Below, in pieces: positions 14,580 through 49,805 of a DNA stretch of 64,000 bases. The stretch is taken from positions 1-64,000 of the IMG/VR virus record IMGVR_UViG_3300035698_029839; one strand, 5' to 3'. Every line of letters begins with the position of its first letter. The stretch's first letter is position 1. The notes beneath the pieces were generated by a model that was not told the origin of the DNA, made no database searches, and saw only the letters and a program-made list of their open reading frames with translations. The position numbers and the translations under genes were made by a program. Origin of the DNA: a virus.

Positions 14580-14845
14580 GATATAAAGTAGGAGATAAAG
14601 TTAAAATAAAGACTTGGGGTGAAACGAAAAAACTTGTTAATTTTAATTCTTTTATGGAAAAAGAAGTTGAGGAATTGAAAACTAATAGAATATTAACTAT
14701 TAAAGTAGTAAATGAAGGTTGTTATTATGCTATGAAAGAATCACGGTGGTTTTGGAATGATGATATGATTAAATGTTTAGCAAAAGACTTTAAAAAAGAA
14801 ATATACGAACCTATTAATGATAGATTTGAGATATTAGATTTATGA
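14576..14845 (+). CDS. Small SH3/KOW-like protein with C-terminal ILDL tag (89 aa)
   Basis: GTG start overlapping the previous stop. The N-terminus RYKVGDKVKIKTW is an SH3/KOW-like beta-barrel start, and SRWFWNDDMI is a conserved later strand. It is a paralogue of 33322-33642, which has KYKVGDIVKIKTW and ATWVWTDEMI. Both end PI-x-DRFEILDL, the recurring C-terminal tag of this phage. Function unknown. It lies between glycosyltransferase genes. Confidence 0.75.
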   Translation: MRYKVGDKVKIKTWGETKKLVNFNSFMEKEVEELKTNRILTIKVVNEGCYYAMKESRWFWNDDMIKCLAKDFKKEIYEPINDRFEILDL

Positions 14846-24626: not shown

Positions 24627-26240
24627 ATGAACGAAATACTTAGCATACAAGAAGAAAGAGAATTAATATATTTATTGCTTCATCATAAGGACGCAATAGA
24701 TCGTTTTCATAATAGTAGTTTGTCATCAAAATTCTTTAGCGAAGAAAATACGCCTGTTGTTTTAGCTATTTTGGAGACACATGATAAGCATGATGTTTTG
24801 CTGACTAGGAAATCTTTTAAAGAACGATTAAAATTTAATACGGTTCCTAAAGAAAGGATTTCTCAAGAATTGGCGTTTAGTTCTTGTTATTCTGCGTCTG
24901 CTAAGATGGCAGATTTGCCAATGTTGATGCAAAAAATTATTGATAATAATGTTCAGAGTTCTATTATTGTTGCTTTAGAAAAATATAGCAAAAATAATAA
25001 GAAAATTGGCAATATCTCTGCGATCAAAGATTTGGTTAATGATTGCGAGGGCATATTAAAAGGATCGAGAGCATCAGAAGGAAAATCTTATTATGATGAT
25101 ATTAGAGAATTATCTAAAACGAGAGTTCAATATATCGAAGATGTTCGTAGTGGTAAGATTAAAGAAGATCCTCTTATTTTAAGTGGCATAAGAGAAATTG
25201 ATCATACTATGGTTACAGGTTTTGCTAAGGGAACTTTAACTTTGATATGTGCTGATGTCGGCGGTTTTAAAAGTTCAATGATGCTTAATATGGGTTTGAA
25301 TGTATGGAGAAGTGGATTTAATGTCCTATTCGTCCCTCTTGAAATGCATAGGGATCAGATGTGGACAAGAGCTTGTGCGAGAGAAGCTAGGATACGTGCT
25401 GAATTGCTTACAAGAAATATTAAAGATATTACTGATGAGCAAATGCAAAAGATAAGACATATGAATGACGAGTGGAATAAAAATCCTGCTTTATTTTATA
25501 TAATGGAAGAACCTGGAAGTACCAGTGTTTTAAATATACAGAGACAGATAGAAAGAAATATAGAACTTATTAAACCTAAACTTGTAGTTATTGATTATGT
25601 TGCTAATTTAGAAGCTCACAAAAATAGATACGGCAGAAATGATCTCGAGATTGGGGACATGTTGAAAACTATGAGGCAAATGGGTAAAAATTTAGATTTT
25701 GCTGTATTATCAGCGGCCCAATTAGGAAGAGAGGCATTAAAAAGAGTTAGAAGTGCAAGTGCTGACAGAGATAAAACTTCTATCAATTCGGAGGATATTA
25801 GAGGGTCTCACGAATATGCAGCCGATGCTGATAATATTTTTGCACAATTGAAACATATACAACAGCCATCAGAGTTGTTAGATATATTTTGTGTTAAATC
25901 TAGAAATGGTCCAACAGTTTTTGAAAATGATAAAGTTAGAGCTACTCTTAATGTCCATCCTGCATATGGTTTGATTTGTAGCCCCATATATGATCAAGAA
26001 GCATCAGGAGATCCAGAGCAAGTTGAAGAAAATGAAAATGTTGTAGCAGATATTACAGATTTGATGGACAAAATGGAAGATGAAGAAGCTATAGGTGCAA
26101 AGGTTTTCGAAGAATCTAATGATATGTATGATGATTATGGTAGTGAGCATGATGAGGGGTATAATGTTGATGATAACAGCGATATAGAAAAAGCTATAGA
26201 TGATAATGAATTAAGCGATAATTGGCAGGACGATTATTAA
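24627..26240 (+). CDS. dnaB: Replicative DNA helicase (DnaB-like)
   Basis: 537 residues. An N-terminal helical domain (EERELIYLLLHHKDAIDRF) is followed by the RecA-like motor: SGIREIDHTMVTGFAKGTL, Walker A CADVGGFKSS, LFVPLEMHRDQMW, Walker B LVVIDYVANLEA, and the switch AVLSAAQLGREALKR. DIRGSHEYAADADNIFAQL is the family motif H4. A long acidic tail ends NWQDDY, similar to the tails of the SSB and other replication proteins nearby. It unwinds DNA at the fork and would work with the loader before it and the split primase after it. Confidence 0.9.
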   Translation: MNEILSIQEERELIYLLLHHKDAIDRFHNSSLSSKFFSEENTPVVLAILETHDKHDVLLTRKSFKERLKFNTVPKERISQELAFSSCYSASAKMADLPMLMQKIIDNNVQSSIIVALEKYSKNNKKIGNISAIKDLVNDCEGILKGSRASEGKSYYDDIRELSKTRVQYIEDVRSGKIKEDPLILSGIREIDHTMVTGFAKGTLTLICADVGGFKSSMMLNMGLNVWRSGFNVLFVPLEMHRDQMWTRACAREARIRAELLTRNIKDITDEQMQKIRHMNDEWNKNPALFYIMEEPGSTSVLNIQRQIERNIELIKPKLVVIDYVANLEAHKNRYGRNDLEIGDMLKTMRQMGKNLDFAVLSAAQLGREALKRVRSASADRDKTSINSEDIRGSHEYAADADNIFAQLKHIQQPSELLDIFCVKSRNGPTVFENDKVRATLNVHPAYGLICSPIYDQEASGDPEQVEENENVVADITDLMDKMEDEEAIGAKVFEESNDMYDDYGSEHDEGYNVDDNSDIEKAIDDNELSDNWQDDY

Positions 26241-26863
26241 TGAATTATTATATTAATAGGATATTGCAAGAAAAGAGTATTACTTCTTATTTGGAAAGTA
26301 GGGGAATATTTCCTCAGAAGAGGACAGGAGATAAAGATATTTATCATTGTCCTATTCATCAAGGTGATAACGATCCATCTTTTGTTGTTTATCCTGTCGG
26401 AACTAAAGGAAGAGATTATCAGACATATTATTGCTTTGGCTGTCATTCTGGAATAACTTTGATTAATTTAAAAAGTGCTTTAGAAAACATATCTATTAAA
26501 GAGGTTGTTAAATATTTTATTAAAGATATAAAGATAGATACTAGAGATGTGGTTCTGTCGATAATAGAAGATGCTAAAAAACAAAAATTGGGAATTGAAG
26601 AGAATAAGGGGATAGAATTTTTATTACTAATGATTAACTCTTCGTGCCGTAGACATATTATGGAGGATTGCGAAGCGAACGAAGAAGAAATAGATTTTTT
26701 TGAGAATTTTTTTAAAAAAATAGATGATATTGCAAGAGCCAGGAATCTTGAATTATTACAACAAGTTTCTTTTATTCTGGACGAAGGGAAAGATAAAAGG
26801 TCTAAGGATTATAAGAAAAAGAAAGAAGAAATGGAAATATCTTCTTTAACTTGGAAAATTTAA
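26240..26863 (+). CDS. dnaG: Primase zinc-binding (CHC2) subunit, half of DnaG
   Basis: The ATG at 26240 overlaps the dnaB stop (TAATG) and follows GGCAGGA. Residues 37-68 form the DnaG zinc finger: CPIH, then QTYYCFGCHSG, with NDPSFVVYP between, followed by helices (INLKSALENISIKEVVKYF). The 207-residue protein has no RNA polymerase or TOPRIM domain. Those are encoded separately at 41420-42127, 14.5 kb away. The zinc domain recognises template trinucleotides in known primases; the two parts presumably assemble in trans. Confidence 0.85.
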   Translation: MNYYINRILQEKSITSYLESRGIFPQKRTGDKDIYHCPIHQGDNDPSFVVYPVGTKGRDYQTYYCFGCHSGITLINLKSALENISIKEVVKYFIKDIKIDTRDVVLSIIEDAKKQKLGIEENKGIEFLLLMINSSCRRHIMEDCEANEEEIDFFENFFKKIDDIARARNLELLQQVSFILDEGKDKRSKDYKKKKEEMEISSLTWKI

Positions 26864-31122: not shown

Positions 31123-32532
31123 ATGATTTTTGATAATAAAGATTATGTTCCGCTGCATTGTCATTCCGAATTTAGTCAATTTGATGGTTTGGCAAATATA
31201 AATGATCTAGCAATGCAAGCTAGGAAAATGGGTTTCCCAGCATGTGCTCTCACTGACCATGGTAATATTATGGGTTGGATTAAATGGCTTCAAGCATGTA
31301 GAGCCACAAAAGATAAGAAAGGTAAAGATATTCCTTATGCTCCTATTAAACCTATTCTAGGGTGTGAATTTTATTTATCTCGAAAGATGGATATAGGACA
31401 AAATCAAGAAAAAAGAGATACCGAAGTCATAAAAAAGAATCAACCTGATGGACGCAGGGGAAATAGACATTTAAATCTTTATGCTATGAATTTTGAAGGT
31501 TATAAGAATATATGCAATATGTCTCAAAGGTCTTATACGGAGGGATTTTATTACGATCCTAGAATTGATATCGATATGTTATCAAAGCATTCCAAGGGTG
31601 TTATGTGTGGTTCTGCATGTCTTTCTAGTGTTATTAATGCTAATCTAATGTATGGACGTTACAACCAAGCTAGAGAGACTTGTGGTATTTTAAACGAGAT
31701 CTTTGATGGTAATTTCTTTTTAGAGATGATGTACCATGGGATTAGTGAAGAAAAAGAAATTATTCCTTTAATTTTAAAATTGTCAACAGAATTAAATATT
31801 CCTGTTGTTTGTACCAATGATAGTCATTATATCCATAAGGACCAAGGAGCATCTCAAGAAGTTTTATTATGTATGTCTCAACAAAGATGTTTGAAAGATC
31901 CTAAAAGATTAAAATTCGGTCATATGGAATTTTATTTTAAGAGCGCGGAAGAAATGGCAGTTATGTTTGGACATGTTCCTCATGCTTTAACTAATTCTGT
32001 TGTTCTTGCTGAAAGAATAGATACTAAAGATATAGAGAAAAATCTTTTTGGAGGTATGAGACTACCTAAGTTTGATATACCTAAAAAATATAAAAATCCA
32101 TATGATTATATGTCTATTTTAGCATGGGAAGGAATGGAGAGAATTGGATGGGACAAAAGTAAAGAACATGTAGATACTTTAAAAATGGAATTAGAAGATG
32201 TGAAAGTTGCATATGAAAATAATAATTATGATTTCTCTACATATTTTTTAATAGTTAGAGATTATATATTAGAAGCTAAAAAGATGGGAACTTTTGTTGG
32301 TTGCGGCCGTGGTTCTGGGTATGCTAGTGTATTATTAAGATGTCTTGAAATTACTTATGGGGTAGATCCATTAAAGTACGGTCTTCTATGGGAAAGATTT
32401 TTGGGATTTGACTCCAAAAGGTTTATTAAAGAATCAGATTTCGGATTTGAAGAAGACTTGGTGCAACAAGCAGCAGATAGAGATTTGGAAGGAGATTTAG
32501 AGGAAGATTTAGGAGGCATTGATAGATATTGA
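31123..32532 (+). CDS. dnaE: DNA polymerase III alpha (DnaE), fragment 1: PHP and start of palm
   Basis: 469 residues. The PHP domain is complete (VPLHCHSEFSQFDGLANI, ALTDHGNIMGW, VVCTNDSHYIH). The palm begins normally with FVGCGRGSGYASVLLR and VDPLKYGLLWERFLGFDS, then stops before the catalytic P-D-I-D-x-D-F motif. That motif is in the separate ORF at 33679. The last 35 residues replace the expected sequence with a strongly acidic tail (EEDLVQQAADRDLEGDLEED). No intein motif is visible at this break. Four small genes lie between the two fragments. Confidence 0.9.
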   Translation: MIFDNKDYVPLHCHSEFSQFDGLANINDLAMQARKMGFPACALTDHGNIMGWIKWLQACRATKDKKGKDIPYAPIKPILGCEFYLSRKMDIGQNQEKRDTEVIKKNQPDGRRGNRHLNLYAMNFEGYKNICNMSQRSYTEGFYYDPRIDIDMLSKHSKGVMCGSACLSSVINANLMYGRYNQARETCGILNEIFDGNFFLEMMYHGISEEKEIIPLILKLSTELNIPVVCTNDSHYIHKDQGASQEVLLCMSQQRCLKDPKRLKFGHMEFYFKSAEEMAVMFGHVPHALTNSVVLAERIDTKDIEKNLFGGMRLPKFDIPKKYKNPYDYMSILAWEGMERIGWDKSKEHVDTLKMELEDVKVAYENNNYDFSTYFLIVRDYILEAKKMGTFVGCGRGSGYASVLLRCLEITYGVDPLKYGLLWERFLGFDSKRFIKESDFGFEEDLVQQAADRDLEGDLEEDLGGIDRY

Positions 32533-32756
32533 TAGATACAGATATTAATTGGAATGAACTAACAGAGCAAGAGAGAGAGAAAATACTTCAAAAAATATTA
32601 TCAACAGAAGAAGGTCTAACTGCAATGGCTATGAGTATGGCTCCCTCGCAGAAGGGATATAAGGAAGCACAAGAAATATATATTAAAAAATATGGAAGAA
32701 TAAAAAAAGAAATACTTGTTCCTATAAATGATAGATTTGAAATATTGGATTTATGA
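32529..32756 (+). CDS. Small protein with ILDL tag inside the dnaE break (75 aa)
   Basis: TTG start overlapping the stop of dnaE fragment 1, with AGGAGG upstream. Helical (ELTEQEREKILQKILSTEEG), acidic to basic, ending VPINDRFEILDL. First of four consecutive tagged genes. Function unknown. Confidence 0.65.
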   Translation: MIDTDINWNELTEQEREKILQKILSTEEGLTAMAMSMAPSQKGYKEAQEIYIKKYGRIKKEILVPINDRFEILDL

Positions 32757-32771
32757 AGGAAGAACTTACAA

Positions 32772-33065
32772 ATGGCTTTATCTGATTGGTCTGAAGAAAA
32801 CAAAGAAATAATTAAAAATGCTTTAAAAACGACAGAAGGAAGAGAAGGATTTAAAGAAGCTTTTTATGATACTGTAAATATTTCACTAGAAGATTATTTA
32901 ACGCAAACTTCTGAATCTTTAGGAACAGATGATTTAGAAAAGCATGTGCATAAAATAGTAGAAGATGTATCAGACATATTAGAAATAATTTATGAAAAAG
33001 ATGAAATAAAAGAAACAAAAATAGATAATCCTATAACTACCAGATTGGATATATTAGATTTATGA
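32772..33065 (+). CDS. Small protein with ILDL tag inside the dnaE break (97 aa)
   Basis: Acidic, helical, 97 residues (LSDWSEENKEIIKNALKTTE, LEKHVHKIVEDVSDILEIIY), ending NPITTRLDILDL. GAAGGAAG upstream. Its N-terminal repeat-like helix resembles the previous gene (TTEGREGFKEA against STEEGLTAMA), so they may be distant paralogues. Function unknown. Confidence 0.65.
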   Translation: MALSDWSEENKEIIKNALKTTEGREGFKEAFYDTVNISLEDYLTQTSESLGTDDLEKHVHKIVEDVSDILEIIYEKDEIKETKIDNPITTRLDILDL

Positions 33066-33319
33066 TTAAGGAAGAATTTAAACATGTTAAACTTTTTCCA
33101 ATGCAGGAAAATTTAATTGAAGAGATGGCAAAGGTTCAACCAATTGCAGACGAGTTAGAAGCACTAGGATATATCTATGCTCCGTACATTCCTTTGCAAA
33201 TATCTCTTACTCCTACTCTTAATATTTCTGATTTAATTACTCCCAAAAAATATACTATTAGGAAATATACAGATATTTATTCAGATATTGATAATAGATT
33301 TGAAATATTGGACTTATAA
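33062..33319 (+). CDS. Small protein with ILDL tag inside the dnaE break (85 aa)
   Basis: 85 residues starting in an ATGA overlap with the previous gene. It contains a hydrophobic, Pro-rich middle (GYIYAPYIPLQISLTPTLNI) and ends DIDNRFEILDL. No family recognised. Confidence 0.6.
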   Translation: MIKEEFKHVKLFPMQENLIEEMAKVQPIADELEALGYIYAPYIPLQISLTPTLNISDLITPKKYTIRKYTDIYSDIDNRFEILDL

Positions 33320-33321
33320 TT

Positions 33322-33642
33322 ATGAAATACAAAGTTGGCGACATAGTAAAAATAAAAACATGGGAAGCTATGGGGAGAGAGTTTATTTTTACGACTAGTG
33401 GGAATATATCAATACATAAGACTTCTCAGTATTCAACAGGGATGGAAGATCTTTTAAAAGAGATAGATACTAATAGGGTAGTAACAATATTAAAAGTGAT
33501 AGATAATGTTGTTCCCCCCAGAATACCTCATTACAAGATAGAAGAATTTGATGCTACATGGGTTTGGACAGATGAGATGATAGAGTGTAGTGCAGTGCCA
33601 GCAGTGCCGATACAAGACAGATTTGAGATTTTAGATTTATAG
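33322..33642 (+). CDS. SH3/KOW-like protein with ILDL tag (106 aa)
   Basis: KYKVGDIVKIKTW and ATWVWTDEMIECS make it a paralogue of 14576-14845. Both end PI-x-DRFEILDL. The fold suggests a small beta-barrel that could bind nucleic acid or protein. It is followed by a promoter for dnaE fragment 2. Confidence 0.7.
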   Translation: MKYKVGDIVKIKTWEAMGREFIFTTSGNISIHKTSQYSTGMEDLLKEIDTNRVVTILKVIDNVVPPRIPHYKIEEFDATWVWTDEMIECSAVPAVPIQDRFEILDL

Positions 33643-33643
33643 T

Positions 33644-33672
33644 TTGTAAAGTGAAAGTTATTTTAATATATT
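33644..33672 (+). promoter_or_regulatory. AGTGA-class promoter (TTGTAA-N17-TATATT)
   Basis: TTGTAA 33644-33649, AGTGAAAGT spacer start, TATATT 33667-33672. The ATG of dnaE fragment 2 at 33679 is 7 bases from the -10, with no ribosome binding site between, so a leaderless message is predicted. Confidence 0.68.
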
Positions 33673-33678
33673 TAAGTA

Positions 33679-34722
33679 ATGGCAGAAATCGAAACAAGAA
33701 AAAAAGAGATAATAGAATACGTTACTAAAAAACATTCTAAGAGCGACAAGTTATCTAAAATTATTTCAAAAGTTAAAGAAGAACTTGATGTTTTGGGATC
33801 AACTGATGGCTTAGAAGCAAAGAATAATTTAGAAGTATTTTATAATATATGGAAAAGTCATAAGGGCAAAGTAGGTCATAAGAATGATATAAATAGCTGG
33901 ACTGCTTTCTTTTTAGGCTTAACCAAAGTCAAACCTGATAAGGATTTTCTTCCTACCAGACGCGCTTTTGCAAGAGCTGGATTCCCTGATATTGATACTG
34001 ATTTTGATTATGAGAGCAGGGATAGTGTTTATACTTATATTATTGATAAATATGGTAGGGACAATGTGGGAAATATAGGAACTCATGGTTTGTTAAGATT
34101 TAAATCATGTGTCACTCGAGTTACAAAAGCCTTAGATTTAGCTAATGCTTATCATAAGGGGGACAGTCTTTTTGTTAGTGAGAATGCTGCAAAAGTGACT
34201 GAAATTTTATCACCTTTTCCCAAAAAAGGATTATTAAAAGTTACAGATGAAGATGGAGAAAGTCATCTTATAAAAACTTTTGAAGATGCATATGCGCATT
34301 GCTCTGATTTTAAGCACTATGTAGATAAGTATAAAGATAGTGGTTTTAAAAAATACATGGAACAAATTGAAGGCACTTTTGCTAATTTTGGATGTTTAGC
34401 AAAGGATACTCCTATTCTGACCGATGGAGGATGGAAAAGAATTGACCAGCTTTCTACCAAATTTTCTATAGCTTATATTAATAAGGATGGGGAAATTTCT
34501 TATACTGATAGATATAAAGCATTTAAAACAGGTAGAAAAAAAGTATATAGATTAAAACTTAAGGACGGTAGATTTATAGATGTGACTGATGAGCATCTTA
34601 TTTTTACAGATAAAGGATGTGTTAAATTTGAAGAAATTAGAAAAAATAAAGAAAATTATAAAATTTATGGAATAAAAAAGGATTCTTTGAAGAATGATAG
34701 GATTACTATACCAGCAGTGTGA
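33679..34722 (+). CDS. dnaE: DnaE fragment 2 (palm active site) fused to split-intein N half
   Basis: 347 residues. A basic, helical N-terminal extension (EIETRKKEIIEYVTKKHSK) precedes the palm core with the catalytic PDIDTDF (103-109) and YIIDKYGRDNVGNIGTHG. The DnaE part ends at GTFANFG, residue 238, in the loop before the conserved HAAGVV. From Cys239 the sequence is intein: CLAKDTPILTDGGWKRIDQL, then LKDGRFIDVTDEHLIF (block B, T-x-x-H-like). The remaining polymerase and the intein C half are in the ORF at 35838, so trans-splicing is needed to build the active site. Confidence 0.9.
   Translation: MAEIETRKKEIIEYVTKKHSKSDKLSKIISKVKEELDVLGSTDGLEAKNNLEVFYNIWKSHKGKVGHKNDINSWTAFFLGLTKVKPDKDFLPTRRAFARAGFPDIDTDFDYESRDSVYTYIIDKYGRDNVGNIGTHGLLRFKSCVTRVTKALDLANAYHKGDSLFVSENAAKVTEILSPFPKKGLLKVTDEDGESHLIKTFEDAYAHCSDFKHYVDKYKDSGFKKYMEQIEGTFANFGCLAKDTPILTDGGWKRIDQLSTKFSIAYINKDGEISYTDRYKAFKTGRKKVYRLKLKDGRFIDVTDEHLIFTDKGCVKFEEIRKNKENYKIYGIKKDSLKNDRITIPAV
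34393..34719 (+). other. Split intein, N-terminal half (109 aa)
   Basis: Begins with the nucleophile Cys (FG|CLAKDTPI) and contains blocks A and B (DVTDEHLIF). It stops at TGA 34720-34722 without a C-terminal block. Its partner is at 35838-35978. Confidence 0.9.
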
Positions 34723-34743: not shown

Positions 34744-35604
34744 ATGAATAAATGTAAAATTTGCGGTAAAGAATTTAATAAAAGAATTTCTTTAGAGAGA
34801 CATATAACTAGTTCTTATGGTAAAGAAAAGAAAAAAAAGCATTGTCCTATTTTAGTTTATAAGTGGAAGTATGAGAAAAATAATAGATTTTCTAAAAAAA
34901 GTTTGATTAAGATGTATATAAAAGATAAAAAATCTACGCCTATGATGAAAGAAGAGTTGCAAATTAATAAAAAAACTCTTTTAGATACTATGCATTTTTA
35001 TAAAATTAAAATGAGAAGTATATCGGAAGCTTCTAAAAACCAGATTGAAAGGGATGGCTTGTGGAATAAAGGGCTTACTAAGAGGGACCATCCATCTATT
35101 ATGTCTTATGCTAAGCAAAGAAAAGGGAGAAATAATCCTTATTATACTGCTCCTAATTTTGAAAAAAGAAAGAAAAGAAATTTGGAGATATTAAAAAAAA
35201 CTTGGAAAAGTTTTAATGGAAAAAGGAATCCTAAATCCACAGAAAGAAGAATGGCTAAGATTTTAGACCAAAATAATATATATTATATTAGAAATTTTTC
35301 ATTAAATTATTATGAAAATGGGAAAACCAAATGGAGATTATTTGATTTTTTTATTGAGGGAAAATTATTAGTAGAAATGAATGGTAATTATTTTCATGCT
35401 AATCCTAAAATATATAAAGCAGATGATGAAATAGTTATAGCTAAAAGCAAGAGAAAAGCGAAAGATATATGGGAATATGATGTTAAAAAAATGAAGCTGG
35501 GCAAAGATAGTGGCTATAAAACATTAGTTTTGTGGGAAGCGGATTTTGTAGAGATGACAGATAAAGAAGCAATAAAAGAAATTAGGAGTTTAATAGATGA
35601 TTAG
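34744..35604 (+). CDS. Vsr-like (EDxHD family) homing endonuclease between split-intein halves
   Basis: 286 residues with a perfect AGGAGGT upstream. The N-terminus has a C2H2-like finger (CKICGKEFNKRISLERHI), and the middle has NUMOD-like helices. The C-terminal nuclease matches the Vsr-fold I-Bth0305I family: Glu in PKSTERRMAKIL, Asp in WRLFDFFIEG, VEMNGNYFHANP with the His, and IWEYDVKKMKLGKDSGYKTLVLWE. Known fractured-gene loci carry exactly this type of nuclease between split-intein genes. It would spread the interrupted dnaE to intact alleles. Confidence 0.85.
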   Translation: MNKCKICGKEFNKRISLERHITSSYGKEKKKKHCPILVYKWKYEKNNRFSKKSLIKMYIKDKKSTPMMKEELQINKKTLLDTMHFYKIKMRSISEASKNQIERDGLWNKGLTKRDHPSIMSYAKQRKGRNNPYYTAPNFEKRKKRNLEILKKTWKSFNGKRNPKSTERRMAKILDQNNIYYIRNFSLNYYENGKTKWRLFDFFIEGKLLVEMNGNYFHANPKIYKADDEIVIAKSKRKAKDIWEYDVKKMKLGKDSGYKTLVLWEADFVEMTDKEAIKEIRSLIDD

Positions 35605-35845
35605 CGAAGAAAATGAATTGCCTGAAAAATTTAAAGAAGTAATGCATCGTGCTTTTAAAGATTGTGACGAATTTTATAATGAAATTAGGGATATTCCTAT
35701 TAGTAAAGTAAAAGATTTAACAAATATAATAAAACTTTTTAAATCAAATATCTCAAATGAAAATGAGCAGAGTTATATTATAGACGGAAAAAGGGTTTTC
35801 AACCTGGCCGATATTAAAGAGGTTCAAAAAAAATATAATGAGTAA
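35597..35845 (+). CDS. Small hypothetical protein between intein halves (82 aa)
   Basis: 82 residues, acidic and helical (LPEKFKEVMHRAFKDCDEF), overlapping the endonuclease stop and the next start by 8 bases each. No family recognised. Its tight packing suggests it belongs to the mobile cassette. Confidence 0.55.
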   Translation: MISEENELPEKFKEVMHRAFKDCDEFYNEIRDIPISKVKDLTNIIKLFKSNISNENEQSYIIDGKRVFNLADIKEVQKKYNE

Positions 35846-35978
35846 TTTAAATTTGTTTAATATAGAATCAATTGAAGAATTAGATTTTGAAGATGTTTAT
35901 GATATTTCAATAGATGAAGATTGTGTTTTTTTTCAAAACGAGCATAATTATATAGCAAATAATATAGTTGTTCATAAT
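35838..35978 (+). other. Split intein, C-terminal half (47 aa)
   Basis: Contains block F (EDVYDISIDEDCVFFQNEHNY) and block G ending VVHN with the usual His-Asn, followed by Ser as the +1 extein residue. ATG at 35838 overlaps the previous gene. Confidence 0.9.
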
Positions 35979-37685
35979 TCTCATGCTGCGGGTGTGGTCG
36001 TATCGGATGTCCCTCTTGATCAAATAGCTCCATTAAGAAATGCTAGGAAGGGAATGCTGGCTACTCAATTTCCTAGTGAAGATTTAGAACTTCTCGGTCT
36101 TATCAAATTTGATGTTCTGGCTATAGCCACTTTATCAGTTATTAAAAAAGCAGTAGAAATGATAAAAGAATATTGGGGGATAGAGATAGATGTAGAAAAT
36201 CTTCCTATGAATGATGAATCTACATTTGAAATTTATCGCAAGGGGAATTTGGGAGGAGTTTTTCAATGCGAAAAACATGGTATGCAAAAAACTATGAGAG
36301 ATATAGGGGTAGATCGTTTCGAAGATGTTATAGCTGGACTAGCACTACATCGTCCAGGCCCTATGGATAGTATTCCTGAGTATTGTGCCAGGAAACACAG
36401 GGAAAAAGATGTTGATTATTTTCATCCCTCAATTGAGCCATATGTAAAGCCTTATTTAGAAAGTACTTACGGTGTCCTTTGCTTCCAAGAACAGGTTATG
36501 CAAATTTGTAATAGTCTTGCTGGTTTCACAATTACTGATGGATATATTATGATAAAAGCGATTGGTAAGAAAAAAGAGCACTTGATGAAAAGATTCGAAG
36601 AACAATTTATTTCTGGTTGTGTAGAAAAAAAAGTTCCCCAACATGTTGCTCAGCAGTATTGGACTAAGTTTATTACTCCATTCTCATCTTATGGGTTTAA
36701 TTTGTGTCTTGATGGAAGCATGAGTGTTAAAAATAAAAAAGATGGAGAAATTTATGAAATTGAAGAATTAGAAAAAGAATTTAAAAAAGGAAATAAATTA
36801 GAAATTGTATTGGATAGTTATAAGGGAGGGCTTATTGTGGAAGATATAGTTGTTGATATATTTTGCACAGGTAAAAAAGATATTTATGAAATAGAATTGG
36901 ACAATGGGTCTATTTTAAAATGCACTTTGGATCATAAGTTTATATGTGATGATGGCAACGAGCATACAGTAAAAAAGATTATGGAAGAAGATTTAAATAT
37001 TTTATATTTTCAAGAAAATATGAAAAAGTGCAAAATAAAATCAGTTAAATATCTAGAGAAAAAAAAAGCATTTAATTTAACCATGAAATCAGGACAGCAT
37101 AATTATGCTCTTTATGATATGAATAACAAATGTAGTGTTATAAGTCGTAATTCTCATAGTGCATGCTATGGTTATAACTCTTATACAACAGCATATTTAA
37201 AAGCTAATTATCCTGATGAATTTATATGTTCTTTATTAGATGTGACGATAAGTGGTTCTCAAGGAGAGAGATATGATAAGGTTGCTGCATTTGAGAGAGA
37301 ATTTAAAAAGAAGATGAATATTAAATTTCTTTCCAGAGATATAAATAAATCAAAAGTATTGTTTACTATTGAGAAAAGAAAAGATCTTTCAGAAGGCGTG
37401 AAAAAAACAGAAATACGCCCTAGTCTTTTATGTAAGGGGCTTTTGAAAAAATCAGCTATGAATATAGAAGAAAATCAACCATATGATGATATGAGAGATT
37501 TTGTTAGAAAAACTAATTCGTCATTAATTGATATAAGGGTAGTGGAGGCTTTGACTACAGGTGGATATTTCGGGAAAAAGTATATGGAAGATCCATCTGT
37601 TATTGTGAAAGATTTTGTGATGATTAGAGAAGATATGAAAAAAACTGCTAAAAAAGGAGTAGAAACTGTCGATTTATTTGCATAA
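35838..37685 (+). CDS. dnaE: Split-intein C half fused to DnaE fragment 3, with a second intein
   Basis: 615 residues. Residues 1-47 are the intein C half, ending NYIANNIVVHN before Ser48. The DnaE body resumes at SHAAGVVVSDVPLDQIAPL and includes the third catalytic Asp (LGLIKFDVLAI) and the fingers (GVFQCEKHGMQKTMRDI, LALHRPGPMDSIPEY). A second intein fills residues 290-438 inside the conserved YGFN-SHSACYGY motif. The C-terminus is short compared with host DnaE and ends VETVDLFA, which resembles the canonical QLDLF-type clamp-binding motif. The polymerase is active only after trans- and cis-splicing. Confidence 0.9.
   Translation: MSNLNLFNIESIEELDFEDVYDISIDEDCVFFQNEHNYIANNIVVHNSHAAGVVVSDVPLDQIAPLRNARKGMLATQFPSEDLELLGLIKFDVLAIATLSVIKKAVEMIKEYWGIEIDVENLPMNDESTFEIYRKGNLGGVFQCEKHGMQKTMRDIGVDRFEDVIAGLALHRPGPMDSIPEYCARKHREKDVDYFHPSIEPYVKPYLESTYGVLCFQEQVMQICNSLAGFTITDGYIMIKAIGKKKEHLMKRFEEQFISGCVEKKVPQHVAQQYWTKFITPFSSYGFNLCLDGSMSVKNKKDGEIYEIEELEKEFKKGNKLEIVLDSYKGGLIVEDIVVDIFCTGKKDIYEIELDNGSILKCTLDHKFICDDGNEHTVKKIMEEDLNILYFQENMKKCKIKSVKYLEKKKAFNLTMKSGQHNYALYDMNNKCSVISRNSHSACYGYNSYTTAYLKANYPDEFICSLLDVTISGSQGERYDKVAAFEREFKKKMNIKFLSRDINKSKVLFTIEKRKDLSEGVKKTEIRPSLLCKGLLKKSAMNIEENQPYDDMRDFVRKTNSSLIDIRVVEALTTGGYFGKKYMEDPSVIVKDFVMIREDMKKTAKKGVETVDLFA
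36705..37151 (+). other. Mini-intein in DnaE (149 aa)
   Basis: Cys1 at 36705 (GFNL|CLDGSMSVKNKK), block B around SILKCTLDHKFICDDG, block F AFNLTMKSGQHNYALYD, and the end VISRN before SHSACYG. No endonuclease domain. The penultimate residue is Arg instead of the usual His. It sits three residues downstream of the site used by the cyanobacterial DnaE split intein. Confidence 0.85.
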
Positions 37686-40259: not shown

Positions 40260-41420
40260 ATGGCAAAAGGTAAAAGTAACAAAGGGAATAGTGATGATAT
40301 ATTTAAGGGACTAGGTGGTTTTTGCCGTTTGGGGGCCAGGGAATCAAGCCCTGGCAACATCCCCACTGGTCACTTTAATTTAGATTTTATTATTCAGTAC
40401 GGAATGCATCCATCAAAAGTTGACTTAAATAAGGTCGAAGGATATGATCCTGCAAAAACTATAGGAATACCATTAGGGAAATTGGTTGAAATTTTTGGTG
40501 AAGAGGGTAGTGGTAAATCTTCTTTAGCTTATCGTGTTGCAGGATATGCTCAAAAATTAGGACATGAAGTTGTTTGGATTGATGTGGAGCACTCGTTTCA
40601 AGAAAATTTAGCTTATATAAACGGCTGCGACATTGACCAGCTTCATCTTGCTAATATGGTTAATGCAGAAAATCCAGAAGAGGATATTTATGCAGAGGAT
40701 GTAATTGATGCTATGATAGAACTTATGAAACAGGGTGCTGGAGTTATAATTTTAGATTCTGTTGCTAATTTGATTCCTAAGGCACTTTTTGAAGCTTCTA
40801 CAGAAAAAGAATTTATGGGACTGCTTTCAAGATTGTTGAGTAAATCTTTAGGTAAGTTAGTTTCTTATGCTGAGAAATATGGAACGTTGCTTATTTTTAT
40901 TAACCAGTTGAGAGAAAAAATAGGACAAACTTGGGGAGACCCAAGGACAAGTCCAGGAGGTCATTCATTACATCACAATGCATCTCTTCGTCTTAGGATG
41001 GATAAAAGGAATAGCAAGGATGCTGATATTTATGTCCCTGATCCTGAGACAGGTGAAGATATGTTAATAGGTAGGCACTCTAAAGTTTCTCTTGTTAAAA
41101 ATAGATTTGCTAAACCTTATAGAGAGTCTTTGGATGTACCTATTTATTATGAGGCATATTTTCCCGAAATAGATGAAGTAGTTTTTGATACTGGAAGACA
41201 AATAAAACTTATTTCAGTTAGAAAAGGAATTTTTAATTGGGACGGGTTAAAGATCGAAGGCAGAAAAGATTTTATTAAGCATATTAAAAAAGAAAATCTT
41301 ACAGATAAGCTGATTGATGCTATAAAATTAAAGGCATTAGAGAATGATATTATTCTTCCTCCAGAAATTATTTTGTATGGGATGGAAGAAGACAGTGCAG
41401 GTTCTCCTGCGGTGAAATAA
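40260..41420 (+). CDS. recA: RecA/UvsX-type recombinase
   Basis: 386 residues with GGTG upstream. Walker A is EIFGEEGSGKSS, Walker B is GVIILDSVANLIPKA, and loop L2 and its flanks are INQLREKIGQTWGDPRTSPG followed by GGHSLHHNASLRLRM. The N-terminal region carries TGHFNLDFII, the RecA stretch before the core. It catalyses strand exchange on SSB-coated DNA. It sits between SSB and the primase TOPRIM gene, whose ATG overlaps its stop. Confidence 0.92.
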   Translation: MAKGKSNKGNSDDIFKGLGGFCRLGARESSPGNIPTGHFNLDFIIQYGMHPSKVDLNKVEGYDPAKTIGIPLGKLVEIFGEEGSGKSSLAYRVAGYAQKLGHEVVWIDVEHSFQENLAYINGCDIDQLHLANMVNAENPEEDIYAEDVIDAMIELMKQGAGVIILDSVANLIPKALFEASTEKEFMGLLSRLLSKSLGKLVSYAEKYGTLLIFINQLREKIGQTWGDPRTSPGGHSLHHNASLRLRMDKRNSKDADIYVPDPETGEDMLIGRHSKVSLVKNRFAKPYRESLDVPIYYEAYFPEIDEVVFDTGRQIKLISVRKGIFNWDGLKIEGRKDFIKHIKKENLTDKLIDAIKLKALENDIILPPEIILYGMEEDSAGSPAVK

Positions 41421-42127
41421 TGAATAAATGGGTAAATGGTTTCCCCGAAACTGAAAGATACAAAATTGTTGAAGCAGCTAAGATAACTCTTTCAAAACCA
41501 GAAGGAAAAATTGCTCTTGATTATTTGCTCAATGAGCGAAAATTTTCTCCTGAAATCATTGATAAATTCGATATGGGTTATTGCCCTCTGGACGTAGATC
41601 ATGAAGTAAGAGGCAGAATTATTACTCCTATCTATAGTAGTTATGGAGAGTTAATAGCCATATCAACTCGTCATTTAGATAAGAATCATTCACAAAGATT
41701 TTTACATGAATCTTTTGATAAGGGTTCTTATCTTTATGGCTTGTATTATGCAAAAGAGAATATCCAGAGAATTAATAAAGTTATTATCGTAGAGGGGGAG
41801 TGTGATGTGGCATGTTCTCATACTTTCGGATTTAATATGACTGTTGGGCTGTGTGGTAGCGCTTTCACTCTTTTTCAAATAGCTTTGTTATCTAAATATT
41901 GTACAGATTATTATCTTTTATTTGATGGGGACGAAGCTGGAAGAAAATCTATAGCAAGAGCGATGAAAGATTATGAGAAATATAATTTAGTTTCTTATGG
42001 GTTAAGATTTATTCCTGTTTATCTTCCTAAAGATTGTGATCCTGATGAATTCATAATTGATGGAGGTAAGAAGAATATGAGAAACAAATTAATAACGTCT
42101 AAAGAAGATTGTGGATTTAATATTTAA
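41420..42127 (+). CDS. dnaG: Primase catalytic (TOPRIM) subunit, second half of DnaG
   Basis: 235 residues. It begins with the DnaG RNA-polymerase N-terminal region (ALDYLLNERKFSPEIIDKFD, then GRIITPIYSSYGELIAISTR) and contains the TOPRIM motifs: IIVEGECDVAC (catalytic Glu) and YYLLFDGDEAGRKSI (D-x-D). There is no CHC2 zinc finger and no C-terminal helicase-binding domain. The zinc finger is the separate gene at 26240. ATG overlaps the recA stop (TAATG). Confidence 0.88.
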   Translation: MNKWVNGFPETERYKIVEAAKITLSKPEGKIALDYLLNERKFSPEIIDKFDMGYCPLDVDHEVRGRIITPIYSSYGELIAISTRHLDKNHSQRFLHESFDKGSYLYGLYYAKENIQRINKVIIVEGECDVACSHTFGFNMTVGLCGSAFTLFQIALLSKYCTDYYLLFDGDEAGRKSIARAMKDYEKYNLVSYGLRFIPVYLPKDCDPDEFIIDGGKKNMRNKLITSKEDCGFNI

Positions 42128-44263: not shown

Positions 44264-46153
44264 ATGAAAGATTTTGAATTTTATAAAACAATTCGTTTTT
44301 CAAGTAATAAAGAAAAGATAGTAAAAGCATTTTCTAAATTACATAATCTATATCATACTATTCCTGATACAAAAGGGTGTTTGGATAACATCAACATAAA
44401 AGGAGCAGGCTGCAAAGCTTGGTGTTGTCGTATCCAAACACCCCAGTTTTTATATTCGGAATTTCTTTTAATTTGGAATTTTGTATCTAAAAATTGGGAT
44501 GATAATGACGTTTGTGATTTATTTGAAAAATGTATGTTAAATGCTGTTAATCCCGTCCCTTCCAAGGGGTGCGTATTTTTTGATGAAGATCTTTGTATGT
44601 GCAGAGTTCATAAAATAAGACCATATAATTGTTTTTTGCCAGAAACATGGGTTTATACAAAAAATGGTCCAAGAAAAATAAAAAGCATACTTACGGGAGA
44701 TGAAGTTTACGGAAAAGATGGAAAACTTTACAAAGTTAAAACAACAGCATCTTCATATCATAATGGGTTAGTATATAATGTGAAATATCAGGGAAATAAA
44801 ATAGATTCGTGGTGCACTGGAGATCATAAATGGTACGTAGATAGCAGAAAGGACAAAAGAAAGAAAGTTAATTTATTATGGGAAAGGGCAGAAAACCTCG
44901 TTAGTAAAAAATGTAAAAATTATGGGAATTATTTATCTATTCCTTATATCTACGAAGATAATGATAATTTAAATGAAATAATAGTAAATGATTTTATAAA
45001 AGCAAAAGAAGAGGGAGGGCGTTTAAAACCATTTACTGGAGGAGAAAACGGGGATGGAGATTTTACAAAATCATTGCCATTTAAAATAAAAATAGATGAA
45101 GAGTTTTTATTTATGATAGGGATATACTTGGCAGAAGGGAGCAGCTCAATTATGTCCGCTTCTTTTTCTATGAACATAAATGAAAAACATCATTTGTTAA
45201 GGATCGAAAAATATATAAATAGTTTAGGTATTTTGTGCTCTTGGCCAAAAATAAATCATAGTAAAAAGCTTATTGTTTTAAGAGTTGGATCTTGTTTATT
45301 TGCTCGTTTAATGACGGAAATAGGAGGAAAACTAGCTAATAAAAAAAAGATTAATAAAAAACTTTTTGGAAAATTTTCTTTTTTACAATTGAAAAAAATA
45401 TATGAAGCATGGAATATGGGGGATGGGAAAAAGAAAATGCCTGAAGGAGAGGCTTCTACTGTTACTGTATCTGAACTTCTGGCATTGCAAATGAATTTTA
45501 TATTAATAGCTAATAATATATTTTCAAGAATTTATAAATATAAAAGAAAAGACAGAGGATTTTGTAGTTATGATGTGCATGTTTTTCCATCTTGCAACGG
45601 ACAAAAAGTAAAAAAAGGACAAGGAACAAAGATAATACAAGCAAATGATAAATTTATAATACCATTGGATGATGTAAAAACTAAATATTATAAAGGACCA
45701 GTAATTGATATTCAAGTTGAAAATGCGGAAAGTTTTATTACTTCTTCAGGTATAGTTCATAATTGTCGAATTTATGGCATAACTCCTGCTGAAGAATTCG
45801 AACCAAGATATTTGCGTTTAAAAGAAGAATATAAAACTATTTTAGGGGCGGTTATTAAGCCACAATGTTCTTTAGTATCTACTATTGATGATATAGGATT
45901 AACAGTAGAAGATACTGATAAGTGGTGGGCCAAACTTGTTAAAATTGAGCAATCTATTGGTATCCCTAAAGATATGGTTACAGATGCTATAGGAGGAAGT
46001 TATAGAACTCCTCATGATCATATTCTGCTTTATAATATGCCAGAAAATGTTCTTAATGCTTTGTCTGGGATAAAAAAATATACAGATGAATTTGAAAAGA
46101 AAAAAAGAATTAGGGAATTAATACAGGTGATTAAAAATGTCTTCAAAAGTTAG
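44264..46153 (+). CDS. YkgJ-type metal-cluster protein interrupted by a LAGLIDADG intein
   Basis: 629 residues, of which 123-500 are intein. The extein is a YkgJ/Fe-S-cluster-binding family protein: KGAGCKAWCCRIQTPQF, CVFFDEDLCMCRVHKIRPYN and, after the intein, CRIYGITPAEEFEP. The host residue after the intein is itself one of the conserved Cys, so the cluster forms only after splicing. The biochemical role of YkgJ proteins is poorly known. It overlaps the next gene by 17 bases. Confidence 0.82.
   Translation: MKDFEFYKTIRFSSNKEKIVKAFSKLHNLYHTIPDTKGCLDNINIKGAGCKAWCCRIQTPQFLYSEFLLIWNFVSKNWDDNDVCDLFEKCMLNAVNPVPSKGCVFFDEDLCMCRVHKIRPYNCFLPETWVYTKNGPRKIKSILTGDEVYGKDGKLYKVKTTASSYHNGLVYNVKYQGNKIDSWCTGDHKWYVDSRKDKRKKVNLLWERAENLVSKKCKNYGNYLSIPYIYEDNDNLNEIIVNDFIKAKEEGGRLKPFTGGENGDGDFTKSLPFKIKIDEEFLFMIGIYLAEGSSSIMSASFSMNINEKHHLLRIEKYINSLGILCSWPKINHSKKLIVLRVGSCLFARLMTEIGGKLANKKKINKKLFGKFSFLQLKKIYEAWNMGDGKKKMPEGEASTVTVSELLALQMNFILIANNIFSRIYKYKRKDRGFCSYDVHVFPSCNGQKVKKGQGTKIIQANDKFIIPLDDVKTKYYKGPVIDIQVENAESFITSSGIVHNCRIYGITPAEEFEPRYLRLKEEYKTILGAVIKPQCSLVSTIDDIGLTVEDTDKWWAKLVKIEQSIGIPKDMVTDAIGGSYRTPHDHILLYNMPENVLNALSGIKKYTDEFEKKKRIRELIQVIKNVFKS
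44630..45763 (+). other. Full-length intein with LAGLIDADG endonuclease (378 aa)
   Basis: Starts CFLPETWVYTKNGPRKIKSI (block A) and ends ESFITSSGIVHN before Cys. The endonuclease blocks are FLFMIGIYLAEGSSS and KKIYEAWNMGDGKKK, with acidic residues in both. Block F is YYKGPVIDIQVENAESF. The site is the conserved R-P-x-x-C of the YkgJ family. Confidence 0.88.
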
Positions 46154-46820: not shown

Positions 46821-49805
46821 ATGGCTTTAGTTTTAAATAGATATCAAAAAGAAGCAGTATTTCATAAAGATGGTCCTTGTTTGGTCACTTCTTGTCCAGG
46901 TTCTGGCAAAACTTTTACTCTTGTAGAAAGAATTGTTTGTTTAATAAAACATGGTGGAGTAAAACCTAAAAATATTTTGTGCCTAACATTTACGAACAAG
47001 GCGGCAAACGAAATGAAAGAGAGGGTTTGTAAAAGGCTCAATATAGATAAATTAGATTTTTTTGTAGGTACTTTTCATTCTCTTTGTGCAAAAATGCTTA
47101 GGAAAATAGGTCCTTCTCAAGGGTTAAAAGTTAATTTTAGTATTATAGATGACAGAGATCAAATTGATTTAATTATGCAAATAGCAAGGAAGCTTGAAAT
47201 AAAAATAGAAAAAGGCGATGCTTTTAAAATAGCTAATCGTCTTAATTTCTATAGGGATCAAATGGAAGATTTTGGATGGGTAGAGGATAATTTAAATTCG
47301 GAACCGTTCATCGATATAGCAAAAGAATATTTAAAACATTGTGATAAGAACGGTCTTTTAGATTTTAGTGCTCTTATATATAAAAATATTAAAACGATAG
47401 AGTCTGATGATGATTTGAAAAGAAAAATTCAAAATACTTTTAAATACATTATGGTTGACGAGACACAAGATACAAATAAATCTCAATTTTATTTAGTTAA
47501 TCTCTTGGGAGGAAGATGGAAAAATATAATGTTGATAGGAGATATTGATCAGTGTGTTATAGAAGGAGAAAGAGTTTTAACTAATGATGGATGGAAAAAA
47601 ATAGAAGATATAAAGAAAAAAGAGGAAGTTATATCTGCCTCTGGTGGTGGTAAGGTTTCTTCGGATAAAGTTCTTAATAAGTATAAGAAAAAAGTTTCTA
47701 ATCGTCCTATTGTTAGATTAAAGACTAAATCTGGATTTCATATGACTATGACAAAAGAGCATATGATTTTTGCAGACTATGTTAAATCATCTTCTAAAAA
47801 GATAATAGTATATTTAATGTATGATAGAGAATTTGGTTATCGTGTAGGAGTTACTAATACAAAACGCAAACATGGGAAAAATGGAGAAGGACTTGGAGCT
47901 AGGTTACAGCAGGAAAGAGCGGAATATTTATGGATTTTAAAATCTGTTGATAGTATTGATGATGCAAAATACTGGGAGCATTATTTTTCTGTTAAATATG
48001 GTATTCCTACATGGTGTTTCTATAGCAATAAAAAACAAAGAAATTTAGATTATTCAGATGAAAGTATTAAAAAACTTTTTTCTTCTATCAACACGGTTAA
48101 TAATGCAAAGAAATTAATGGAGGATTTATGGTTGTTTGAAGAACGACCACATTATGTCCCAAAATGCATGTGTAAAAATAAGCGTAGGAATTTTACTATC
48201 AATATGTGTGCTGATTCTCGTTCAGGTACTTTGCATAGATATATGATATCTGGTTCTGATGAAAAAGATGGGGAAATGCTTAAAGAGGCAGGGCTGAATG
48301 TGAGAAGTAACGGAAAGGGAAGAAGGGGATGGAGAGTAGATTCTGCTTTGAAATCTATAAATAAAATTTATAATATTTTAAAACTAACTAAAGAGACATT
48401 AGGATATGTTAACATTATAGAAAAAGCTCGTTTTTGTGAAGAAACTCTTTCTTTAATACCTGCTTCTCATTTGAAAGAAGGTATGGCAGTTTATGTTGGT
48501 GATGAAAATGGTGTTTCTATCGATTATGTTGAGTCTATAGAATTTGATTATTATGATGGTAACGTTTATGATATTGATGTTGATAATTATCATAATTTTA
48601 TAACCAATGGGATTGTAAGCCATAACTCGATCTACGGTTGGAGAGGAGCAAGATATCAGAATATCCAGGATTTTATAAATAATTATTCTGATTGCAAAGT
48701 TATTTCTCTTTCTAAAAATTACAGATCTACACCCCAAATTGTTGAGGTGGCAAGGAAATTAATTAAATTAAATACAAGTCATATGGGTACTGCTTTTGAG
48801 ACTGATAATAAAGATGGGGATAAAGTTAAATGTTATTCTTTTAGAGATCAATACGCAGAAGCCAATTGGGTTGGAAATACAGCTAAGAAAATTATGGGAG
48901 AAGGGGGTTGGGACCCTTCTGATATAGCTGTTCTTTATAGAGCTAATAAAATGTCAGAACCTATTGAACAGGCATTGGTTAATAATGCTATACCTTATGA
49001 AGTTATAGGAGCATGGAATTTTTATGATCGTAAAGAGGTAAGAGATTGTCTTGCTATGTTAAAGTTATTAGCTAATCCTAGGGACGGAATTGCTTTTGGT
49101 AGAATTTGTTCTTTTGTAGATGGTATGGGATCTATTACTATAGGCAAAATAGAGAATATAGCTCAAGATAAGAATATAAGTATTCCTCAAGCCTGTAAAA
49201 TAATGGGAGATAAAGCAAATAGTATCAATATTTCTAAGGGTTGTGAAAAACTTCATAGTATTTATAGTAGTAAATGGGATCATACAAATCCTGCTGGTTG
49301 TTTGTCTAAATTGATTAATAATTTTAATTATGAAAGACATTTATTAAAAAAGTTTAATGATACTGCTAGCGAGAGAAAAGATAATGTTTCTCAAATAGTG
49401 TCTTCTGCTGGAGAATGTAATGGAGAAACAAATGGAGTGAGTAAATATCTTCAGCAAGTTTCTCTTATTACGAATGCGGACAAAGATAATAAAGATGATA
49501 AGATGTCACTGATGAGTCTTCATGCATCCAAGGGATTAGAGTTTCCTATTGTATTTATGATAGGTGTGGAAAGTGATTTATTGCCTCATAAGAACGCTAT
49601 GTCTGAAGATCCATATGCTGGGCTTGAAGAGGAGAGAAGATTGTGCTATGTGGGTATGACAAGAGCTAAGAAGGCTTTGCTTTTAAGTTGGTGTCAAAGA
49701 AGACGAAGATTTGGTAAGCATGGAGATGTCTCTTTTAATAAGTGTAAGCCAAGTAGGTTTTTATATGAGTCGGGAATATTAAAGAAAGGTCAATATGAAT
49801 ATTGA
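46821..49805 (+). CDS. UvrD/PcrA-type SF1 helicase with intein
   Basis: 994 residues, of which 245-602 are intein. Helicase motifs: NRYQKEAVF (Q), TSCPGSGKTFTL (I), LCLTFTNKAANEMKER (Ia), YIMVDETQDTN (II), IGDIDQ-intein-SIYGWRGARYQ (III), SLSKNYRSTPQIV (IV), MSLHASKGLEFPIVFMIGVE (V) and EERRLCYVGMTRAKKALLLS (VI). It unwinds 3'-5' in repair or replication restart. The intein breaks motif III, so the helicase is inactive before splicing. It overlaps the next gene by 11 bases. Confidence 0.92.
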   Translation: MALVLNRYQKEAVFHKDGPCLVTSCPGSGKTFTLVERIVCLIKHGGVKPKNILCLTFTNKAANEMKERVCKRLNIDKLDFFVGTFHSLCAKMLRKIGPSQGLKVNFSIIDDRDQIDLIMQIARKLEIKIEKGDAFKIANRLNFYRDQMEDFGWVEDNLNSEPFIDIAKEYLKHCDKNGLLDFSALIYKNIKTIESDDDLKRKIQNTFKYIMVDETQDTNKSQFYLVNLLGGRWKNIMLIGDIDQCVIEGERVLTNDGWKKIEDIKKKEEVISASGGGKVSSDKVLNKYKKKVSNRPIVRLKTKSGFHMTMTKEHMIFADYVKSSSKKIIVYLMYDREFGYRVGVTNTKRKHGKNGEGLGARLQQERAEYLWILKSVDSIDDAKYWEHYFSVKYGIPTWCFYSNKKQRNLDYSDESIKKLFSSINTVNNAKKLMEDLWLFEERPHYVPKCMCKNKRRNFTINMCADSRSGTLHRYMISGSDEKDGEMLKEAGLNVRSNGKGRRGWRVDSALKSINKIYNILKLTKETLGYVNIIEKARFCEETLSLIPASHLKEGMAVYVGDENGVSIDYVESIEFDYYDGNVYDIDVDNYHNFITNGIVSHNSIYGWRGARYQNIQDFINNYSDCKVISLSKNYRSTPQIVEVARKLIKLNTSHMGTAFETDNKDGDKVKCYSFRDQYAEANWVGNTAKKIMGEGGWDPSDIAVLYRANKMSEPIEQALVNNAIPYEVIGAWNFYDRKEVRDCLAMLKLLANPRDGIAFGRICSFVDGMGSITIGKIENIAQDKNISIPQACKIMGDKANSINISKGCEKLHSIYSSKWDHTNPAGCLSKLINNFNYERHLLKKFNDTASERKDNVSQIVSSAGECNGETNGVSKYLQQVSLITNADKDNKDDKMSLMSLHASKGLEFPIVFMIGVESDLLPHKNAMSEDPYAGLEEERRLCYVGMTRAKKALLLSWCQRRRRFGKHGDVSFNKCKPSRFLYESGILKKGQYEY
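47553..48626 (+). other. Intein in UvrD motif III with GIY-YIG-like module (358 aa)
   Basis: Cys1 at 47553 (CVIEGERVLTNDGWKKIEDI) and the end YHNFITNGIVSHN before Ser. Block B is GFHMTMTKEHMIF. The insert includes IIVYLMYDREFGYRVGVTNT, then GLGARLQQERAEYLW, then DDAKYWEHYFSVKYGIPTW, which has the order of GIY-YIG nucleases. A later part (MCADSRSGTLHRYMISGS) may be a LAGLIDADG remnant. Confidence 0.82.

Follow-up and report, generated by a model that had tools for sequence, protein, structure and literature searches.

A probable two-subunit DnaE polymerase in a phage record, broken within the palm and carrying a second, degenerate half-palm

Arrangement and conservation of the broken dnaE

The gene for the C-family replicative DNA polymerase, dnaE, is spread over three open reading frames (ORFs) in a stretch of 64,000 nucleotides (the window), which is the first 64 kb of the metagenome-derived, 297,710-base phage record IMGVR_UViG_3300035698_029839 of IMG/VR. 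The first ORF is the N-gene, while the second and third form the C-gene (Table 1). All hallmarks of DnaE are present but distributed over the chains, i.e., the PHP domain, the palm GS motif, PDIDxDF, the third aspartate and the fingers domain: GRGS comes from the first ORF, the first two catalytic aspartates from the second and the third aspartate from the third. As far as sequence can tell, the product belongs to the C-family (DnaE) and is presumably active as a polymerase. In the whole record, PF07733 matches at just these three places, and neither a second N-part (profile search) nor a family-B polymerase (PF00136) was found; N-gene and C-gene are evidently the sole C-family polymerase encoded there.

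In the N-ORF, a PHP domain match is followed by a match to Pfam DNA_pol3_alpha (positions 3-98). The PHP positions that we take to be the metal ligands of an active exonuclease, using the ligand set of M. tuberculosis DnaE1, are kept (H12, H14, D21, H46, E82, H116, C166, D233 and H235). An earlier note on this DNA, made from the letters alone, had described a palm broken without an intein, with fragment 1 ending past the GRGS motif and WERFLG and fragment 2 bearing PDIDTDF. Both placements were confirmed, with GRGS at aa 395-398 of the N-ORF and PDIDTDF at aa 103 of the C-chain. Since fragment 2 matches DNA_pol3_alpha positions 68-160, which share positions with the match of fragment 1, the fragments overlap, and this overlap had been missed. 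The third part (positions 212-260) carries the fingers and a second intein.

The overlap corresponds to C-chain residues 1-100, which align with the palm, beginning upstream of the GS motif. A profile of this extension, trimmed before the shared FLPxRR...PDID segment, was compared with the half-palms of fused phage DnaE proteins, the two nearest fused relatives being excluded; the profile-profile score was 41.6 (E 4e-7), and 100 column shuffles reached 16.2 at most. In hmmsearch against Taq DnaE, the extension was aligned from the GRGS region onward. The GRGSAAGS motif has become GxxN[DK]INS in the C-chains: RGS is found in all N-copies and in no C-copy. We conclude from these comparisons that the N-terminal extension of the C-chain is a degenerate duplicate of the half-palm.

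Table 1 Features of the dnaE locus in the window
Feature	Position	Strand	Basis
N-subunit gene, 469 aa: PHP domain, then first palm half with GRGS	31123..32532	+	sequence, domain matches
Intact palm GS motif (CGRGSG) for triphosphate binding, N-chain	32302..32319	+	sequence
Acidic C-terminal tail of N-subunit, aa 429-469, ending DLGGIDRY	32407..32529	+	sequence
Gap between halves: four small ORFs (32529-32756, 32772-33065, 33062-33319, 33322-33642)	32529..33642	+	ORF list
First portion of C-subunit gene, 347 aa, with degenerate copy of the half-palm, PDIDTDF and split-intein N-half	33679..34722	+	domain matches
Degenerate second half-palm copy, aa 1-102 (GRGSAAGS to GHKNDINS)	33679..33984	+	profile comparison
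PDIDTDF, first two catalytic aspartates, C-chain (aa 103)	33985..34005	+	sequence
N-half of split intein (CLAKDTPILTDGG..., VTDEH), from C239	34393..34719	+	Hint match, motifs
Free-standing homing-endonuclease-like ORF with zinc finger, between intein halves	34744..35604	+	function inferred from position and motif
Small 82-aa ORF between intein halves	35597..35845	+	ORF list
Remainder of C-subunit gene, with split-intein C-half (up to N at 35978), GLIKFD holding the third catalytic Asp (36111), fingers, mini-intein and clamp-binding-like motif	35838..37685	+	domain matches
cis mini-intein, 149 aa, at YGFNL/SHSACYG	36705..37151	+	intein match
ETVDLF, C-terminal clamp-binding-like motif	37662..37679	+	sequence

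The earlier note had proposed a search of relatives for fused or split forms, and both exist. A separate downstream C-part occurs in 14 related contigs of the viral_contigs collection (L020, 351 kb; L021, 548 kb; L022, L024, L025, L028, L029, L030, L033, L034, of which L035 is a near copy, L036, L037, L041 and L042). Their N-parts are 51-84% identical to that of the window, and most have an unbroken C-gene. The break is thus conserved, and no intron or intein was found at it. Fused forms are L032, where N-part, both half-palm copies and C-part lie in a single 1,116-codon frame, and L049 and L052, which have no second half-palm copy. The ratio of nonsynonymous to synonymous substitution rates (dN/dS) between the window and L020 was 0.074 for the N core, 0.060 for the N tail and 0.044 for the first 100 C-chain residues, which indicates purifying selection on both new ends at the break.

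A metagenomic record with DnaE in three ORFs might be suspected of an assembly error or of holding a decaying pseudogene. Because 14 other contigs, obtained from many samples, are arranged alike, we reject an assembly error, and with dN/dS about 0.05 and all catalytic residues kept, we consider the probability of either as practically nil.

The halves are 1.1 kb apart in the window and separated by 0 to 2.9 kb of unrelated cargo in the relatives. Gap genes of the relatives, labelled by eye from sequence with no family search, are an endonuclease-like ORF in L021, ClpP-like in L024 and L029, methyltransferase-like in L030, L034 and L042, and deaminase-like in L041. In L037 the gap is zero: the stop codon TAG of the N-gene (7204-7206) is directly followed by the C-gene in frame, and its read-through would join the two genes.

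Alternatively, the gap could be a mobile intron or intein, or the relic of one, with the halves being rejoined at the RNA or protein level. Bacillus phage G, broken at this very site, may be an example: gp329 stops after FERFLNPTRGKLP, the homing endonuclease gp330 comes next and the remainder resumes at DIDIDF. The endonuclease-like ORF in the L021 gap would fit such an origin. However, no Rfam intron matched within 32380-34020 at E<=1 (the same search was also blank at the phage G locus), and in contrast to phage G, the two ends in the window overlap, each continuing beyond the joint and being under purifying selection. A rejoined chain would not be a canonical protein, since it would contain both half-palms plus additional sequence, and the gap contents vary between phages and look like real genes. 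The earlier note had seen no splicing motifs on either side. This is correct for the break 32532/33679, at both ends of which no Hint N- or C-motifs were found; the Hint match in fragment 2 (aa 246-323) lies at its opposite end and belongs to the N-half of a split intein. We therefore regard an intron or intein at the break as quite unlikely.

The same overlapping break was found in two other lineages, L066 and L085. A single origin of all splits (main clade, L066 and L085) was rejected in the approximately unbiased (AU) test (p 1.6e-112 for the N tree and 2.2e-39 for the C tree). Judging from the trees, the overlapping split arose more than once, and would have arisen independently in these lineages too. 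Grouping of L032 with the split clade was compatible with the AU test (p 0.11, N tree; 0.18, C tree); L032 is possibly an unsplit intermediate, or a re-fusion. The simplest route would be that the half-palm was first duplicated within dnaE, the state seen in L032, and that the gene then broke between the two copies. The C-extensions of L066 and L085 share the pattern NK..S..YLIG[IV]T with the main clade, which may reflect segment transfer or convergence. Transfer between lineages is possible because the L085 extension matches that of the main clade better than canonical DnaE; a search for the L085-type extension yielded it in no phage record.

Predicted structures and assembly of the two chains

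The natural single-chain relative L032 is predicted to fold as an ordinary DnaE. Its AlphaFold2 model had a predicted local distance difference test score (pLDDT) of 89 and a predicted template modelling score (pTM) of 0.87, and residues 4-1099 aligned with Taq DnaE (Z 39, root-mean-square deviation 2.9 over 898 residues); it also aligned almost end to end with the DnaE proteins of E. coli and M. tuberculosis. Confidence was low at residues 423-540, i.e., the link and the second copy. The L032 alignment probably gave this region little support, as was seen directly in the sister alignment.

The C-subunit was modelled alone, since in the alignments for an L037 read-through construct the second copy was not aligned to itself. 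In the model of the L020 C-chain (pLDDT 89, pTM 0.73), a helical domain, predicted with confidence and having its elements in the order of the half-palm, spans residues 1-91 and is followed by a flexible link (92-102) and the PDIDTDF strand. Known DnaE structures align to this model only from about residue 94. In a VIA-align comparison of the C-subunit, the extension was not placed on the palm, a missing match that shows nothing firm. As the extension is predicted to be a separate domain on a flexible link, the palm position would be left free for the N-chain. A C-chain with its own folded half-palm copy might also be a complete polymerase using this worn copy, the N-protein being a separate PHP nuclease or regulator. 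We consider this unlikely, because the copy is without GRGS in every member and lies outside the palm position in the C-chain-only model, and RGS as well as the canonical sequence of the palm are retained in the N-chain.

We favour, with a probability of about 0.8, a naturally two-subunit C-family replicative polymerase, the chains of which remain separate and most likely bind non-covalently. Non-covalent assembly is likely because the break is conserved, both ends are under selection, no intron or intein was found there and L032 is predicted to be a normal DnaE. The N-subunit carries the proofreading-type PHP nuclease together with the half-palm in which the GRGS loop is expected to bind the incoming triphosphate, and the C-subunit carries the metal-binding aspartates, the fingers and the clamp motif. 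The two chains would be translated separately from one gene cluster, and the half-palm of the N-chain would fill the ordinary palm position against the PDIDTDF strand of the C-chain. The worn copy, a small helical domain by prediction, probably remains from the duplication and serves in structure or docking.

A palm assembled non-covalently from two chains had also been proposed in the earlier note; that the palm consists of two chains not spliced at this break is well supported (14 contigs, purifying selection, the L032 fold), and their assembly is likely. The rationale given for it, oppositely charged tails at the break acting as an assembly device, did not hold up. The N-subunit does have an acidic tail, which is 41 residues long rather than about 35, with a net charge of about -9. 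This tail is acidic in most members, with a conserved terminal peptide, but is missing or short in L022 and L041. The Lys-rich helical start described for fragment 2 does contain 9 Lys among its first 40 residues; with 8 acidic residues, the net charge is +2, near neutral, and in seven relatives it varies from +1 to -6. C-chain starts fall inside the charge spread of the ORFs of the window (mean 0.3, standard deviation 4.7). Assembly by opposite charges is therefore very unlikely. The terminal peptide GG[VI]DRY followed by a stop occurs once in 9/11 records, twice in the L021 record and not in that of L028, and the tail holds a possible remnant of the catalytic motif (SDFGFEE under PDIDIDF, a weak match). 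At 9566-9898, directly after an endonuclease-like ORF, L021 has a 110-aa ORF with the same ELEDDLGGVDRY end as the DnaE N-subunit, which may be a shared tail or a partial copy.

Several points weigh against the two-subunit enzyme. The C-gene start in the window has no clear ribosome-binding site. As L022 and L041 are without the tail, it cannot be the general joint of the chains. L032 is a fused proxy, and with the second copy thinly supported in the alignment, low confidence there says little about its position. Finally, we infer that the chains bind and are active, that splicing takes place and what the extra domain does.

More broadly, overlapping fission of the palm may be a repeatable route, which we put forward tentatively and think rather unlikely: duplication, a break between the copies, and use of the spare copy as a placeholder or docking domain that holds the C-subunit for as long as the palm position is not occupied by the N-subunit. 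This would let a phage exchange or control the nucleotide-binding and proofreading part apart from the metal site.

Inteins, gap genes and neighbourhood

DnaE occupies three ORFs in the window because a split intein additionally breaks the C-gene. The C-half at 35838-35978 completes the N-half begun at nt 34393, and the break 34393/35978 has the features of a split-intein fractured gene: Cys1, TxxH, HN followed by Ser, and an endonuclease-like ORF between the halves. Such fractured genes, in which split inteins occur along with a free-standing endonuclease, were reportedly described by Dassa et al. in 2009. Removal of the inteins in silico resulted in a 657-aa C-chain that aligned without gaps to the intein-free L020 chain (82% identical), with all catalytic residues of the window DnaE retained. 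The C-chain of this phage would have to be rejoined by trans-splicing, with removal of the mini-intein. Since the C-part is a single ORF in most relatives, the split intein is a later addition; in L028, L033 and L042, the C-part is also broken at this second site. Further intein-like segments of the window lie at 44264-46153 and 46821-49805, the latter within a UvrD helicase.

Each of the four gap ORFs ends in RF/RL[DE]ILDL and a stop. A C-terminal octapeptide, [DN]RF[DE]ILD[LI] plus stop, is found at the end of numerous small ORFs that are unrelated to each other (17 in the present record, 25 in the L020 record and 29 in the L021 record), with ORF ends in the window at 14845, 27515, 29320, 29883, 30585, 32756, 33065, 33319, 33642, 51123, 51922, 52374 and 62723. 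It was absent from ten other records, and the reversed control pattern gave none; L028 has the variants RFELMDI and RFEIMDM. Because its codons vary, the octapeptide appears to be a protein signal. It is hydrophobic and acidic, resembling the C-terminal clamp-binding peptides of T4-type phages (PMC2988020).

The surroundings of dnaE are a replication cluster with RecA, the TOPRIM primase part, a DnaB-like helicase, the CHC2 zinc-finger primase part and the UvrD helicase. Neither a beta clamp (PF02767) nor gp45 (PF02916) was found in the record. The DnaG-type primase likewise appears as two genes, the CHC2 zinc finger and the TOPRIM part, about 15 kb apart (26222-26863 and 41420-42127).

Relation to known polymerases

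The window enzyme shares domains, catalytic residues and their order with bacterial and phage DnaE (3e0d, 2hnh, 5lew), has fused relatives in the same tree and a predicted fold that corresponds over the full length. It differs in being two subunits broken within the palm, the second of which opens with a degenerate half-palm duplicate. The break 34393/35978 resembles Dassa-type fractured genes and the cyanobacterial split DnaE intein, whereas the break 32532/33679, without an intein, does not. In Microbacterium phage Erudite, dnaE (genes 55/56) is split elsewhere, upstream of GRGS. The dnaE of Bacillus phage G (gp329/gp330/gp331; L142 5917-9889) has an end resembling an intein at its GS motif. 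Its break falls at the palm site seen in the window, but the joint around a homing endonuclease gene is clean and involves no overlap; this is a different kind of event.

A PHP-bearing overlapping split was not found in the literature, most subscription papers being beyond the search. If our reading is true, one active site is shared by two chains, of which one has proofreading and the other metal catalysis; such an enzyme would offer a naturally occurring system in which to study C-family assembly, and a split polymerase ready for use. L032, fused and with the duplicate, would then be a plausible intermediate for breaking an essential enzyme through its active site with function kept.

Two split polymerases are the closest precedents. 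A minimal split DNA polymerase III (Pol III) in group 2.2 jumbo phages is broken between the nucleoside triphosphate-binding and metal-binding parts (Iyer et al. 2021, PMC7824862), as is the window enzyme. Its N-unit, phrog_11127, which we located in Agrobacterium phage Atu_ph07, stops right past the ERFL equivalent. The minimal enzyme lacks PHP and any further domains and is encoded by genes far apart, alongside a family-B polymerase, whereas in the window PHP is kept, the genes are neighbours and the half-palm is duplicated. With PHP present, genes 1.1 kb apart and no PF00136 match, the window enzyme is not a member of that class. The T4-type gp43A/gp43B of phages 44RR and 25 co-purify and are active (PMC2988022), and are thus likewise a phage replicative polymerase in two separately translated chains able to assemble without splicing; they belong to family B, with an unrelated fold, and no overlapping duplicate is mentioned for them. 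Compared with these precedents, minimal Pol III and gp43A/gp43B, what is new here is that the split overlaps and that a second, degenerate half-palm is retained.

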